Assembly: GCA_902623175.1 (NCBI GenBank)
Contig: CACNSR010000002.1
Location: 62,001-126,000, forward strand
DNA from: Halieaceae bacterium
Lineage (GTDB): Bacteria > Pseudomonadota > Gammaproteobacteria > Pseudomonadales > Halieaceae
Length of the DNA stretch: 64,000 nucleotides
Reading direction: 5' to 3'
Part shown: positions 9,783 to 15,716 of the stretch, piece by piece
Layout of the letters: every line of letters starts with the position of its first letter
Position numbering within the stretch: position 1 is the first letter of the stretch
Notes under the pieces: generated by a model
Seen by the model: only the letters and a program-made list of their open reading frames with translations
What the model was told of the DNA's origin: nothing
Databases searched by the model: none
Translations under genes and position numbers: made by a program

Positions 9783-10850
9783 TCATGTGTGATAGATGCG
9801 GTTTGCTCTAGAGGTCAGGCGGGTCATGAGTTCGTAGCCGATCGTGCCGCAGTGTTCCGCGACGTCATCGATCGATGGTTGATCACCCCAGAGCACTGCC
9901 GGCGCGCCCAAGGTCAAGTTCGGGCAGTCCGTCACATCCACTGTCACCATGTCCATAGAGACCTGGCCCGCCAGTGGCGCGATCTCGCCGTCGATTTCGA
10001 CGGGGGTTCCGTCAGCCGCTCCCCAAGGGTAGCCGTCACCGTATCCCACTGGCACTGTGGCGATCACGCTATCGCGTTGGGCAGTCCAGCGACCCCGGTA
10101 ACCCACAGACTCACCGATTGGTACGTCGCGCAGAGCGATCACCGAACTGGAAAATCGCATCGCAGGGCGAAGAGGAGCAGGATTTGGTAACCCCTTGATT
10201 TGTCCCCCATACAGCGCGTAACCCACTCGCACCCAGTCGCTGGACGCGGACAGCCCGCGCTGCGTTGCTGCCGAGTTGTGAAGACTTGTGGTGTCCTGCC
10301 CGTGGCGGACCGTCTCTTCCCAGCTTAGAAGTTGTGCTCGGGTGAGTGCGTCGTCCGGTTCCTCGGCCGATGCCAGATGCGACATTGCCGTGATTTCACC
10401 GATGCCATATGACAGCAGGATGTCGCGAACGCCAGCGTATCGCTCCGCTGCAAATCCCAGCCGATGCATACCGGTATCGATCTTGATCCACGCCTGAGAC
10501 AGATCCGCTCCCAGCGTTTTGCACCACTCGATTTGCTCGTCGGAGTGTATGACCGGCCAAAGGTTCAGTTTGCCGGCCAAAGCAAGATCGCTAGCAGTGT
10601 GGGGCCCCTCGAGAATCAGTAGCGGGGCGCTGACGCCCATTTCGCGGAGTGCCACGGCTTCTTCAGTAAACGCCACCGCAAGGGCATCTACGCTAGCTTC
10701 AATATGTTTCGCGACCTGAACAGCGCCGTGACCGAAGGCGTCGGCTTTCACCACAGCCATAAACTGATGCGCTGCCAGCCCCCTCCGAAGGGTGCGAATG
10801 TTCTCACTGATGGCTGCGAGATCGATGTGAACCGCTGTCGTGCGTGACAT
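9783..10850 (-). CDS. alr: Alanine racemase, PLP-dependent
   Basis: The 355-residue protein carries the PLP lysine in AVVKADAFGHG (Lys35), the catalytic Tyr in VPVGYGDGYPW (about 255) and the RVGYALYGG and VSMDM signatures. It interconverts L- and D-alanine for peptidoglycan and D-amino acid metabolism. The usual AxxKANAYGHG loop reads KADAFGHG here, a modest variation. Its ATG shares a base with the last base of the D-amino acid transaminase gene, so it is translationally coupled to a D-glutamate/5-oxoproline operon. That context raises the possibility that it feeds D-alanine into transamination rather than, or in addition to, cell-wall synthesis. Confidence 0.93.
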   Translation of the reverse strand: MSRTTAVHIDLAAISENIRTLRRGLAAHQFMAVVKADAFGHGAVQVAKHIEASVDALAVAFTEEAVALREMGVSAPLLILEGPHTASDLALAGKLNLWPVIHSDEQIEWCKTLGADLSQAWIKIDTGMHRLGFAAERYAGVRDILLSYGIGEITAMSHLASAEEPDDALTRAQLLSWEETVRHGQDTTSLHNSAATQRGLSASSDWVRVGYALYGGQIKGLPNPAPLRPAMRFSSSVIALRDVPIGESVGYRGRWTAQRDSVIATVPVGYGDGYPWGAADGTPVEIDGEIAPLAGQVSMDMVTVDVTDCPNLTLGAPAVLWGDQPSIDDVAEHCGTIGYELMTRLTSRANRIYHT

Positions 10851-11710
10851 CAGGGGCTGCTGAAACGATGTTGCTGGAACAGTTTTTGTGCAGCTGACCA
10901 GCGGGATCCCGGGCGGCCGTCATTGACTGGCTTGCCATCCACAGAGATCACGGGCGCCAGTTCCTTAGTAGAGGAGCTCAGCCAGATTTCCGACGCGCTG
11001 AGTACCTCGCCACGGCTCACCGGGCGGACCTCCACAGGCCAGTCTGTATGCGCCGCCAGCAGCTCAAGGCATTGGCGACGCGTGACCCCAGGCAGTTTCT
11101 GATGATCCAGTTCAGGAGTGAGGATCTTGTCGGCGCATACAATAAAGACATTGCAGGCCGCCGCTTCGGTGAGCTCATCTTGCTCGTTAAATAGCAGTAC
11201 TTCCTCAGCTTGCTCTTCAACTGCCTCCATCATGTGCAGTACGTTGCCCAGCAAAGCCGTCGATTTAATATGGCAGCGCCCCCAACGCTGATCTCGTCGG
11301 GTCACTGTGCGAAAGCAGGAGGCTGTTTCGGGTGATCCGCTAGAGGGTGGACTGATGTCAAAGGCGTAAGCGAAGACCGTCGGTAAAGGATGCTCAGGAA
11401 AGGCGTGTTGGCGCTTGTCCACCACCCCTCGGGTAATTTGCAGATAGATTCCGAGATTGCCGGCGCCGTTACGCGCCACGATTTCTTCGAGAATGTTGAT
11501 CAATTGCTCGTGCGAATGCGGCTGCAATAAGGCGATACCATCCAGCGACTGATCGAGCCGCTCAAGATGGTATTGCAAGGCCACCATCTTCCCGTCATAG
11601 CAGGGAATGACCTCGTAGACGCCATCGCCGAACAAGAATCCTCGATCCATTGGCGAGATGCGGACCTCGGCGAGGGGCGCGAAGTCACCGTTGAGGTAGG
11701 CAATGGTCAT
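10850..11710 (-). CDS. dat: D-amino acid transaminase (class IV PLP aminotransferase)
   Basis: The 286-residue fold-type IV aminotransferase has the N-terminal YLNGDFAPL and RGFLFGDGVYEV motifs, the PLP lysine in HIKSTALLGNV (about residue 148) and the Glu-containing LTEAAACNVF loop. The lysine context (IKS..LLGN) is that of D-alanine aminotransferases rather than branched-chain enzymes. It should exchange the amino group between D-alanine and 2-oxoglutarate, giving D-glutamate and pyruvate. It overlaps the DUF4392 gene by 4 bases and alr by 1 base. The neighbours support a role in supplying or removing D-glutamate. Confidence 0.88.
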   Translation of the reverse strand: MTIAYLNGDFAPLAEVRISPMDRGFLFGDGVYEVIPCYDGKMVALQYHLERLDQSLDGIALLQPHSHEQLINILEEIVARNGAGNLGIYLQITRGVVDKRQHAFPEHPLPTVFAYAFDISPPSSGSPETASCFRTVTRRDQRWGRCHIKSTALLGNVLHMMEAVEEQAEEVLLFNEQDELTEAAACNVFIVCADKILTPELDHQKLPGVTRRQCLELLAAHTDWPVEVRPVSRGEVLSASEIWLSSSTKELAPVISVDGKPVNDGRPGSRWSAAQKLFQQHRFSSP

Positions 11711-12561
11711 GCCCGGTCTCCTGATGTCAGCGTATCGTGAACCGCTTGCATAAGACGCTCACCTTCCGCGGCTGGAAAGCTATCTTCAGTGGGCGTCGCT
11801 TCACTGGTCACGCCATCAATCGCACCACGCGCCACCAGATATTCCAAATCCTCTCGAATGCGATGCTTAGCGCTGTCTCCCCGGTCTGATAGCCAGTGAG
11901 CGAAGGCGCAAAGCGCATAGGCCGCCCAGTTGGAGACGTCGGCTACTACCAATTCGTCACAGGTGCTGATCGCAGGCTGAATATTGAGCTTCGACAAGCT
12001 GTTCAGCACATTTCCCATCCCAAGTTCGTTGCCGCCATCACCAATGGCAATGGTAGGGCAGTTAGCCTGAACTAGGTAGGACTCTGCGCCGCCGCACCGC
12101 GCCGTAATGTCGGCACCGGCCATGTTGTAACAGCGCCCATCCGTGGCGCTACCGGGTCTTTCTATACTGATTAGCAACGCGGGTGGCTGGGATCTGTAAA
12201 GCGCAGCTGTCGCAGCGCGGGCGTCATCCCCTGTGCCGTCTGGTAACGGCAGGCAGTTGAAATCTTCATGGAGTGCGGCGGTGACCTGCTTGTCTGAGAG
12301 GATAACGGGATCGCTACCGAGTTGCTGGCAAAGGCGGTAAAGTGCCATGGCGCCCGCCGGTCCGTCTGTCTCAAAGGAATCTCCTACCGGAAAGCCGGTC
12401 AGAATATAGACTCGGCTGGTGCAAGCACTGATCTGTTGGGCTGCACGCAGCAGATAGCCAGGTGTCATGTCCTCGCGCACGTCTGCCATACCCCGATGAT
12501 TACGGGAGACCAGCATCGCCTCAATATTGGCGGAAAGAACTGTGGCGTCAGTGTGCGTCAC
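11707..12561 (-). CDS. DUF4392 protein, D-glutamate cyclase-like
   Basis: The 284-residue protein matches my recollection of the DUF4392 family, the C-terminal half of vertebrate D-glutamate cyclase (DGLUCY), which converts D-glutamate to 5-oxo-D-proline. Visible features are VYILTGFPVGDSFETDGPAGA, a nucleotide- or substrate-loop-like segment, LLISIERPG, and IAIGDGGNELGMGNV near residue 175. It lies between pxpC (14-base overlap) and the transaminase (4-base overlap). The other DGLUCY half, DUF1445, is the first gene of the same operon, so both parts of the animal enzyme are present as separate genes. Activity is inferred from family and context. Confidence 0.8.
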   Translation of the reverse strand: MTHTDATVLSANIEAMLVSRNHRGMADVREDMTPGYLLRAAQQISACTSRVYILTGFPVGDSFETDGPAGAMALYRLCQQLGSDPVILSDKQVTAALHEDFNCLPLPDGTGDDARAATAALYRSQPPALLISIERPGSATDGRCYNMAGADITARCGGAESYLVQANCPTIAIGDGGNELGMGNVLNSLSKLNIQPAISTCDELVVADVSNWAAYALCAFAHWLSDRGDSAKHRIREDLEYLVARGAIDGVTSEATPTEDSFPAAEGERLMQAVHDTLTSGDRA

Positions 12562-14919: not shown

Positions 14920-14921
14920 GG

Positions 14922-15716
14922 CTAGCTCGCCAGCTCTGCATTTTTTAGGTCAGTGACCAGCATGTGCCCCGGTTCGTGAGTCACTGCGATCGGTAAGCGG
15001 GCTGATTCTAGCGCCACCTGCGGTGTCACTCCGCAAGCCCAGAAGAGGGGGACGTCATCGGCCCGCACCGTGACGGGGTCACCGAAGTCGGGCTGTGCCA
15101 GGTCGGGAATGCCGATGGCATGCGGATCACCCAGATGAATCGGTGCGCCGTGGACGGACGGATAACGGGAGCAGATCTGGATCGCTTCGATCGCATCTGC
15201 GGTAGGCATCGGTCGCATGCTCACCACCATCTTGCCGCCGAACGGGCCGGCGCTCTTGCAATCGATATGGGTGCGATACATCGGAACGTTGACCCCTTCA
15301 CTGATATTCCTGATTTCGATACCAGCGGCGATTAGCGCCTCTTCGAAGGAAAACGAGCACCCCAGAGCAAACGCCACCCAGTCATCCTGCCAGAGATCAA
15401 CGATGTCGTGTCGCTGCTCGGTCAGTACGCCGTCATGCCAAACTCGATACTGAGGCACATCGGTTCTAATATCGATGTCGGTTCCCAGCCGTGCCAGTGA
15501 GGGATCCCCTGGCCGCTCGCTGACAGCCAGCAGAGGGCAGGGCTTCGGGTTGAGTGTGCAGAACGACTCAAAATGCGCGGCGTCGCCAGCGGGGAGGACC
15601 ACGATATTGCATTGCACATAGCCCGGCGCCAGGCCGGAGGTCTGCTGCGTGAAGTCTGCGGTCCTGCACCGGGCCCGGATTTCATACCCCGCCATGCGCT
15701 CTTCTGTCGCTACCAT
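14922..15716 (-). CDS. DUF1445 putative hydro-lyase, D-glutamate cyclase family (YcsI-like)
   Basis: The 264-residue protein contains the DUF1445/YcsI features [25 protein letters not shown], a mid-protein [39 protein letters not shown] segments and a C-terminal [10 protein letters not shown]...ITHEPGHM region. In vertebrates a DUF1445 domain forms the N-terminal half of D-glutamate cyclase. It is the promoter-proximal gene of the seven-gene operon. The annotated ATG is at 15716; an in-frame ATG at 15695 (MAGYEI) would suit the predicted promoter better, because initiation near 15724 leaves only a few leader bases before 15716. Function is inferred from family and context. Confidence 0.82.

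Follow-up and report, generated by a model that had tools for sequence, protein, structure and literature searches.

The window analyzed here, the whole 64,000-nucleotide stretch of contig CACNSR010000002.1 from a Halieaceae bacterium, carries a seven-gene operon on its minus strand at positions 9783-15716. As we read it, this operon couples a MurI-independent supply of D-alanine (D-Ala) and D-glutamate (D-Glu) to a one-way route by which D-Glu leaves, via 5-oxoproline, as L-glutamate (L-Glu), a proposal in which our confidence is about evenly balanced. The operon itself is confirmed. From DUF1445 to alr, its seven open reading frames are separated by +2, 0, -4, -14, -4 and -1 bases, matching the overlapping or nearly touching order reported in a preliminary description made from the sequence alone:

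14922..15716, minus strand: DUF1445 (PF07286, 'D-Glu_cyclase'), 264 amino acids, the N-terminal half of the vertebrate D-glutamate cyclase DGLUCY
14179..14919, minus strand: pxpA, 5-oxoprolinase subunit (LamB_YcsF, NF003816)
13480..14178, minus strand: pxpB, 5-oxoprolinase subunit (CT_C_D)
12548..13483, minus strand: pxpC, 5-oxoprolinase subunit (CT_A_B)
11707..12561, minus strand: DUF4392 (PF14336, 'GLUCM-like_C'), 284 amino acids, GTG start, the C-terminal half of vertebrate DGLUCY
10850..11710, minus strand: D-amino acid transaminase (Dat; Aminotran_4)
9783..10850, minus strand: alanine racemase (alr; TIGR00492)

The host genome measures 2.39 Mb and is 85% complete, and the nearest named loci belong to Halieaceae/Luminiphilus. 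Gene spacing suggests a single transcript for all seven genes; promoter matches are about as common as in shuffled sequence and terminator matches rarer (3 versus 2.5 and 1 versus 4.8, respectively), and a single promoter-like site falls ~110 bases ahead of DUF1445.

The gene identities of the preliminary description hold, as all seven proteins pass Pfam cut-offs. Dat matches Aminotran_4 with 168 bits, and its nine PDB matches at E <= 1e-30 are without exception D-amino acid or D-alanine aminotransferases. Residues Y32, R100, H102 and K149 are kept in 46 of 46 aligned sequences; from the motif of the Bacillus enzyme, we take Y32 and R100-x-H102 to be the carboxylate trap and K149 the lysine that binds pyridoxal phosphate. 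Alr scores 182 and 136 bits against the N- and C-terminal Ala_racemase families and passes TIGR00492 (293 bits, cut-off 168). The three 5-oxoprolinase subunits lie together in the operon with gaps of 0 and -4 bases and meet their Pfam models with 294 (PxpA, LamB_YcsF), 198 (PxpB, CT_C_D) and 249 bits (PxpC, CT_A_B); PxpA also passes NF003816 (301.8 bits, cut-off 213). The DUF1445 protein passes both D-Glu_cyclase (219 bits, cut-off 25) and NCBIfam NF003969 (395 bits, cut-off 324), with 2pif and 3db9 as its PDB relatives, and the DUF4392 protein reaches 196 bits against GLUCM-like_C (cut-off 27.9) and has no NCBIfam match. That these two families form the two halves of vertebrate DGLUCY, as the preliminary description recognized, is borne out by passages of PMC5132392 and PMC5339696.

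The first half of our proposal concerns the source of D-Glu. No MurI over the curated cut-off was found in the 37 genomes of the window's genus, a level that the same model exceeded in 8 of the 14 genomes used as controls. For MurL, 53 genomes were searched with a model tuned to Xanthomonadales (cut-off 700 bits): 27 of 27 genus genomes searched gave no match, 25 further MurI-less genomes gave one weak partial match only (G083, 32 bits), and genome G206 gave a match that is clear yet under the cut-off (267 bits). With nothing over the cut-off and matches confined to G206 and G083, MurL was set aside as a hidden D-Glu source. Dat, by contrast, is present, and passages of PMC8788868 name it among the enzymes that provide cell-wall D-Glu and as a recognized alternative to MurI, alongside the MurL route. 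Each genus genome that has alr has a single convincing copy; in the window's own genome, at its 85% completeness, the operon copy is the only one found. Among 21 genomes of the same order outside the genus, Dat of at least 38% identity occurs in 6 of 6 MurI-less but 2 of 15 MurI-bearing genomes (p = 5e-4; the 38% line was chosen after the values had been seen, the next lower value being 33%, in G057). Dat is more than a stand-in for MurI, since 38 of 43 genomes with DUF4392 encode a Dat with 43% identity or more and 21 of the 43 have MurI.

The operon is built of two modules, a constant dat-alr core and a five-gene cassette, DUF1445-pxpABC-DUF4392, that precedes it in some genomes and is missing from others. 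DUF4392 is found in 22 of the 37 genus genomes, DUF1445 is found in the same 22, and DUF4392 is missing from the other 15. In eight of these 15 (L111-L118), dat and alr are adjacent to each other in a slot between two genes that also border the operon in the window:

15774..17303, plus strand: divergent fatty-acid-CoA-ligase-like gene (fadD; AMP-binding, synteny), the left edge of the slot
8211..9716, minus strand: ppx/gppA (Ppx-GppA, synteny), the right edge of the slot

The fadD-like edge is present both with the cassette (synteny in L002-L017) and without it (L111-L118), and ppx keeps its position in all eight cassette-less loci and in most of those with the cassette; no ppx was seen in L011 or L012, and L007 stops short of where it would lie. 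Because dat-alr persists without the block, we regard it as the core and the block as optional. In every one of the 22 genus genomes with DUF4392, the window's own included, the only pxpA found is that of the operon region, and nine of the 15 cassette-less genomes have a single pxpA, which does not lie in the dat stretch of any of the eight genomes in which dat was located. A different combination is seen in genome G046 (L119:9070-9770), where pxpABC precedes dat-alr, both DUF1445 and DUF4392 are missing, and some 690 bases with no assigned gene separate pxpC from dat.

Missing MurI and MurL, the sole alr and the persistence of dat-alr without the other five genes together make this pair a likely source of wall precursors, and dat-alr probably supplies both D-Ala and D-Glu to the wall. 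A plain catabolic operon is thereby disfavored in the window genome. The data suggest that a whole gammaproteobacterial genus makes its wall D-Glu by transamination rather than by MurI, a much-studied drug target.

The preliminary description had proposed looking for the gene order among relatives, and it is conserved there. We collected 75 loci by similarity search with the window's DUF4392. All seven genes occur in the same order in 23 of them, six genes without alr in 15 (one of which, L007, is cut by a contig end), five genes without Dat and alr in seven, and a DUF1445-pxpA-DUF4392-Dat arrangement in 17, all from Pseudoalteromonas; three loci hold a bare DUF1445-DUF4392 pair (L045, L050, L052), and ten, some at contig ends, are arranged otherwise. 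DUF1445 and DUF4392 are thus both present in 70 of the 75 loci, and Dat shares the locus in 62. Several operon genes are split into neighboring frames in three Luminiphilus-type assemblies (L070, which is counted among the 23, L101 and L102), probably through sequencing errors.

The pairing of the two cyclase halves extends beyond this clade. Among 398 Pseudomonadota genomes, DUF4392 is rare (10 genomes) and DUF1445 commoner (64), and both occur in eight. DUF1445 accompanies DUF4392 in 8 of 10 genomes, compared with 56 of the 388 without DUF4392 (Fisher p = 1e-5), and the co-occurrence persists when the window's own genome is left out (7 of 9, p = 5e-5). Of the nine DUF4392 loci with flanks in this phylum sample (own locus excluded), five have DUF1445 (L177-L181), a sixth (L174) has pxpABC about 7 kb from DUF4392, and the fetched stretches of L173, L175 and L176 hold none of the other six operon genes.

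The partners of each half offer insight into how the two might divide the work. The DUF4392 protein is homologous to TON_0340 of Thermococcus (4fc5, 5gkx, 4dwz; E 4e-26; ~95 bits over 220 residues), for which passages of PMC5132392 describe a two-Mn site of six acidic residues. These ligands align with E64, D66, E134, D175, E179 and D260, all of them present in the window protein and in 53 of 54 distinct sequences. One DUF4392 copy (G142; L134 / L174:1864-2928, plus strand) lacks two of the six in the alignment and may be inactive or misaligned. Several genomic partners of DUF4392 appear to concern D-Glu. Besides Dat, these are the MurD-type ligase and MurL-type epimerase genes close by in G206 (L176:8757-13711, minus strand), and a glutamate-racemase-like CTHYP motif, read by eye, between the two DUF4392 domains of a 3573-amino-acid protein in G425 (L178:3680-14401, minus strand), which has a DUF1445 gene nearby. 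No telling partner was recognized in L173 and L175.

DUF1445 keeps different company. We sampled 40 loci in which DUF1445 stands without a DUF4392 gene nearby, counting pxp neighbors within about 8 kb. At least two pxp genes are near 17 of them (including pxpA in 14), and an unrelated enzyme of the hydantoinase/oxoprolinase type is near eight others (found by tblastn; two of the eight were checked with Pfam, and they may be hydantoinases), so that one of two unrelated oxoprolinase-type enzymes lies near 25 of 40 and both types near none. Hydantoinase A/B-type genes, of the eukaryote-like oxoprolinase family, stand beside DUF1445 in L192:8848-12501 (plus strand) and L207:9989-13624 (plus strand). 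A DctP-type binding protein is near 21 of the 40; two of these proteins match best to 2pfy and 2pfz, which we take to be the pyroglutamate-binding proteins of Bordetella that PMC13274462 mentions. Overall, 33 loci have at least one of pxp, hydantoinase/oxoprolinase or DctP genes and seven have none, and neither Dat nor alr lies near DUF1445 in any of the 40. Because DUF1445 so often lies near one or the other of two unrelated oxoprolinase-type enzymes, its substrate may well be 5-oxoproline. The protein keeps C60, C120 and C228 in 97-98 of 99 distinct sequences and E125, R168 and H189 in all 99, a pattern compatible with a cofactor-free racemase. Structure comparison was tried as a route to the mechanism and yielded none: with the AlphaFold model (mean pLDDT 92), Foldseek at E <= 0.001 returned only the protein's own family (2pif, 3db9) and the NrpR-like MJ0159 (3nek; E 6e-6, TM ~0.4). 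Together, these associations suggest that DUF4392 cyclizes D-Glu and that DUF1445 handles, and perhaps inverts, 5-oxoproline.

The co-localization would have another cause if the genes stood together because all touch the glutamate pool, with PxpABC independently repairing the 5-oxo-L-proline that arises spontaneously from glutamine and glutamate. According to passages of PMC13274462, PxpABC clears spontaneous 5-oxoproline, and passages of PMC5339696 state that 5-oxo-D-proline, the product of DGLUCY, is excreted by humans. The bare DUF1445-DUF4392 pairs, which have no nearby pxp genes, and the single pxpA elsewhere in nine cassette-less genomes also fit such a repair role. It does not explain why pxpABC sits between the two cyclase halves, why the operon region holds the only pxpA of all 22 DUF4392 genomes in the genus, or why DUF1445 alone so often lies near an oxoprolinase-type enzyme, which points to 5-oxoproline as its substrate. 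We regard independent repair as possible but doubtful.

The proposed coupling of supply and exit combines known reactions with predicted ones. Passages of PMC5339696 describe DGLUCY, a DUF1445-DUF4392 fusion, as turning D-Glu into 5-oxo-D-proline, and those of PMC13274462 give an equilibrium constant [L-Glu]/[5-oxoproline] of ~0.035, which makes cyclization run downhill and opening require ATP. This cyclization, the opening of the L form by PxpABC and the chemistry of Dat and Alr have been established by others; the activities of the split bacterial proteins and the direction of flux are predicted. Alr would convert L-Ala to D-Ala, and Dat would transfer the amino group of D-Ala to 2-oxoglutarate, yielding D-Glu and replacing glutamate racemase in wall synthesis. 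The five-gene cassette would then serve as the exit, in which D-Glu is cyclized to 5-oxo-D-proline, this is inverted, and PxpABC spends ATP to open the resulting L form to L-Glu. The likelier cyclase is DUF4392, which is related to a di-Mn protein, and DUF1445 would act on 5-oxoproline, most likely by inverting it or as a partner that the cyclase cannot do without. With cyclization downhill and opening paid for by ATP, the exit would be one-way, so that the D-Glu pool could be drained without a reversible racemase. Mouse DGLUCY is said to show reversible, Mn-sensitive kinetics. In relatives that have MurI, the same cassette together with Dat may serve peptidoglycan breakdown.

The preliminary description had left a choice between a PxpABC that accepts the D form and a missing racemization step. 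Direct opening of 5-oxo-D-proline by the PxpABC of this clade would make inversion unnecessary and would suit the synteny of pxpABC with D-Glu enzymes, and the literature passages contain no assay of PxpABC with 5-oxo-D-proline. However, the reaction would yield D-Glu, on which the cyclase itself acts, and the two enzymes would presumably turn in an ATP-burning circle; moreover, the growth and regulation work on PxpABC, in the passages of PMC13274462, concerns 5-oxo-L-proline. We consider direct opening very improbable. Because it would remake the cyclase substrate at the cost of ATP, an inversion step is more sensible, with DUF1445 as the candidate. A useful pathway would need either this inversion between cyclase and PxpABC or export of the product from the cell. 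In its most specific form, which we offer tentatively, DUF1445 would be a 5-oxoproline racemase, DUF4392, DUF1445 and PxpABC together would form an ATP-driven one-way converter of D-Glu to L-Glu via the lactam, and vertebrate DGLUCY would be a fusion of the first two enzymes.

The preliminary description had instead suggested salvage. In a reading close to it, the operon would degrade D-Glu and D-Ala derived from peptidoglycan, whether recycled or environmental, with Dat and Alr running toward L-Ala and pyruvate. Ten gene families that neighbor the cassette were counted in 18 Luminiphilus-type loci and in 56 others, whose flank lengths differ. In the 56, GH3 genes occur in 26 (17 of them Pseudoalteromonas), FAD/Fe-S dehydrogenases in 16 and NagX-like genes in 15; D-Ala-D-Ala-dipeptidase-like genes of the M15 type occur in eight, SSF symporters in five, NagK/MurQ fusions and amidase-type genes in four each, NamZ and RpiR in three each, and diaminopimelate (DAP) decarboxylase in two. 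In the examples scanned against curated cut-offs, MurQ (L177) and LysA (L058) pass, and GH3, NagX, NagK and VanX-like proteins fail. The adjoining NamZ, MurQ, GH3, DAP decarboxylase and D-Ala-D-Ala-dipeptidase-like genes support a role of the cassette in breaking down peptidoglycan in some of the relatives, and the gene order that ends at Dat without alr (15 of 75 loci, one cut by a contig end) suits a degradative direction. The ten families are all missing from the 18 Luminiphilus-type loci, where other degradation genes were not sought, and from L074, which is counted among the 56 and also belongs to the window's genus; no muropeptide or amino-sugar gene of these families adjoins the cassette at Luminiphilus-type loci, and this use is disfavored at the window locus. 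Here the sole alr and the missing MurI require that dat-alr at least also run biosynthetically. Thus, salvage stands for some relatives, whereas in the window the route from L-Ala through D-Ala to D-Glu, which the preliminary description had assigned to salvage, most likely makes wall precursors (MurI in 0 of 37 and MurL in 0 of 27 genomes, with dat-alr persisting) and the cassette would be the exit. We judge salvage unlikely as an account of the operon; the interpretation given in the preliminary description is, taken as a whole, partly supported. The FAD/Fe-S dehydrogenase, of ~950 amino acids, lies directly behind DUF4392 in L181:8818-11649 (plus strand) and, in Pseudoalteromonas, before the GH3 gene (L040:3382-6246, minus strand); it could oxidize D-lactate released from N-acetylmuramic acid.

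Several observations weigh against the coupling of D-Glu supply to a 5-oxoproline exit. The association of DUF4392 with Dat is mostly that of one clade, seen in 62 of 75 similarity-found loci but only 2 of 9 phylum-sample loci (L177, L179). Seven of the 15 cassette-less genus genomes (54-94% complete) have no Dat above 33% identity; six of them have no alr match and the seventh a partial one. Weak partial matches of the Asp/Glu-racemase type (25-28 bits) occur in seven of the 37 genus genomes and may be a second D-amino acid enzyme, so D-Glu could have another source; the genomes are G001, G003, G006, G014, G017, G018 and G020, six of them without the cassette. In three genomes of the Idiomarina type, DUF4392 occurs without MurI and without a clear Dat (31-34%); the bare pairs of L050 and L052 (Idiomarina, Pseudidiomarina) stand in genomes with no MurI over the cut-off and no Dat above 34%. 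The absence of all ten peptidoglycan-related families from Luminiphilus-type loci counts here as well, as does the lack of a transporter gene within the operon. Three proteins miss NCBIfam cut-offs: PxpB (TIGR00370, 136.8 versus 145.55 bits), PxpC (NF045499, 208.8 versus 500 bits) and Dat (TIGR01121 and NF005209, 210 versus 277.45 and 234 versus 320 bits), although the last two are nevertheless the top-scoring NCBIfam models for Dat. Finally, passages of PMC5132392 describe TON_0340 as a weak Mn-dependent phosphatase and not as a cyclase, and those of PMC5339696 report that mouse DGLUCY yields 5-oxo-D-proline with no L-Glu produced, so its DUF1445 half gives no sign of inverting the product.

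Known systems share parts of this arrangement. DGLUCY (9030617O03Rik / C14orf159) likewise has DUF1445 and DUF4392 encoded together, with the D-Glu to 5-oxo-D-proline reaction predicted for the window pair. In the window, the two are separate proteins with pxpABC encoded between them and dat-alr behind; two separate genes make the pair a split relative rather than a DGLUCY orthologue in architecture. The likeness to TON_0340 lies in its six acidic metal ligands, all conserved, and the difference in function: weak phosphatase in the passages of PMC5132392, which contain no assay of D-Glu cyclization or of a partner protein, and D-Glu cyclase as proposed here.

The pxpTABC operon of C. glutamicum and the pxpA-ycsG-ycsI-pxpBC operon of B. 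subtilis have pxpABC in common with the window, and YcsI is presumably a DUF1445 protein. PF07286 has matches in B. subtilis, whereas DUF4392 has none there or in the other control genomes. Passages of PMC10448178 confirm that the B. subtilis pxp operon also includes ycsI, and together with passages of PMC13274462 place an NRAMP-type transporter in these operons, unlike the window operon. As in the Dat-dependent D-Glu supply described in passages of PMC8788868, Dat would make D-Glu from 2-oxoglutarate; here, however, it is apparently the only D-Glu source recognized across an entire gammaproteobacterial genus, and the dat gene overlaps the proposed D-Glu exit cassette. The MurD2/MurL pathway of Xanthomonas is also a MurI-independent D-Glu route for peptidoglycan; it gave no match in the genus genomes searched, whereas G206 has DUF4392 near MurD/MurL-type genes (L176).

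The animal fusion and its separate microbial relatives are already in print (passages of PMC5132392 and PMC5339696), and human D-glutamate cyclase has been listed with six split gut-microbial homologues (passages of PMC11580864). Among the best-ranked literature matches, which include few subscription journals, we found no description of the gene order or of the link to Dat and Alr, and no report of bacterial DUF1445/DUF4392 cyclase activity or of a 5-oxoproline racemase. DGLUCY has been linked to how the mammalian heart handles D-Glu (passages of PMC5339696), and the roles of its two domains are not told apart in the passages of PMC5132392 and PMC5339696. Because bacteria keep these domains as separate genes with different partners, each role should be directly assignable. 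If correct, the coupling of D-Ala and D-Glu supply to a 5-oxoproline exit would also explain why DUF1445 genes often accompany either of two unrelated oxoprolinase-type enzymes.

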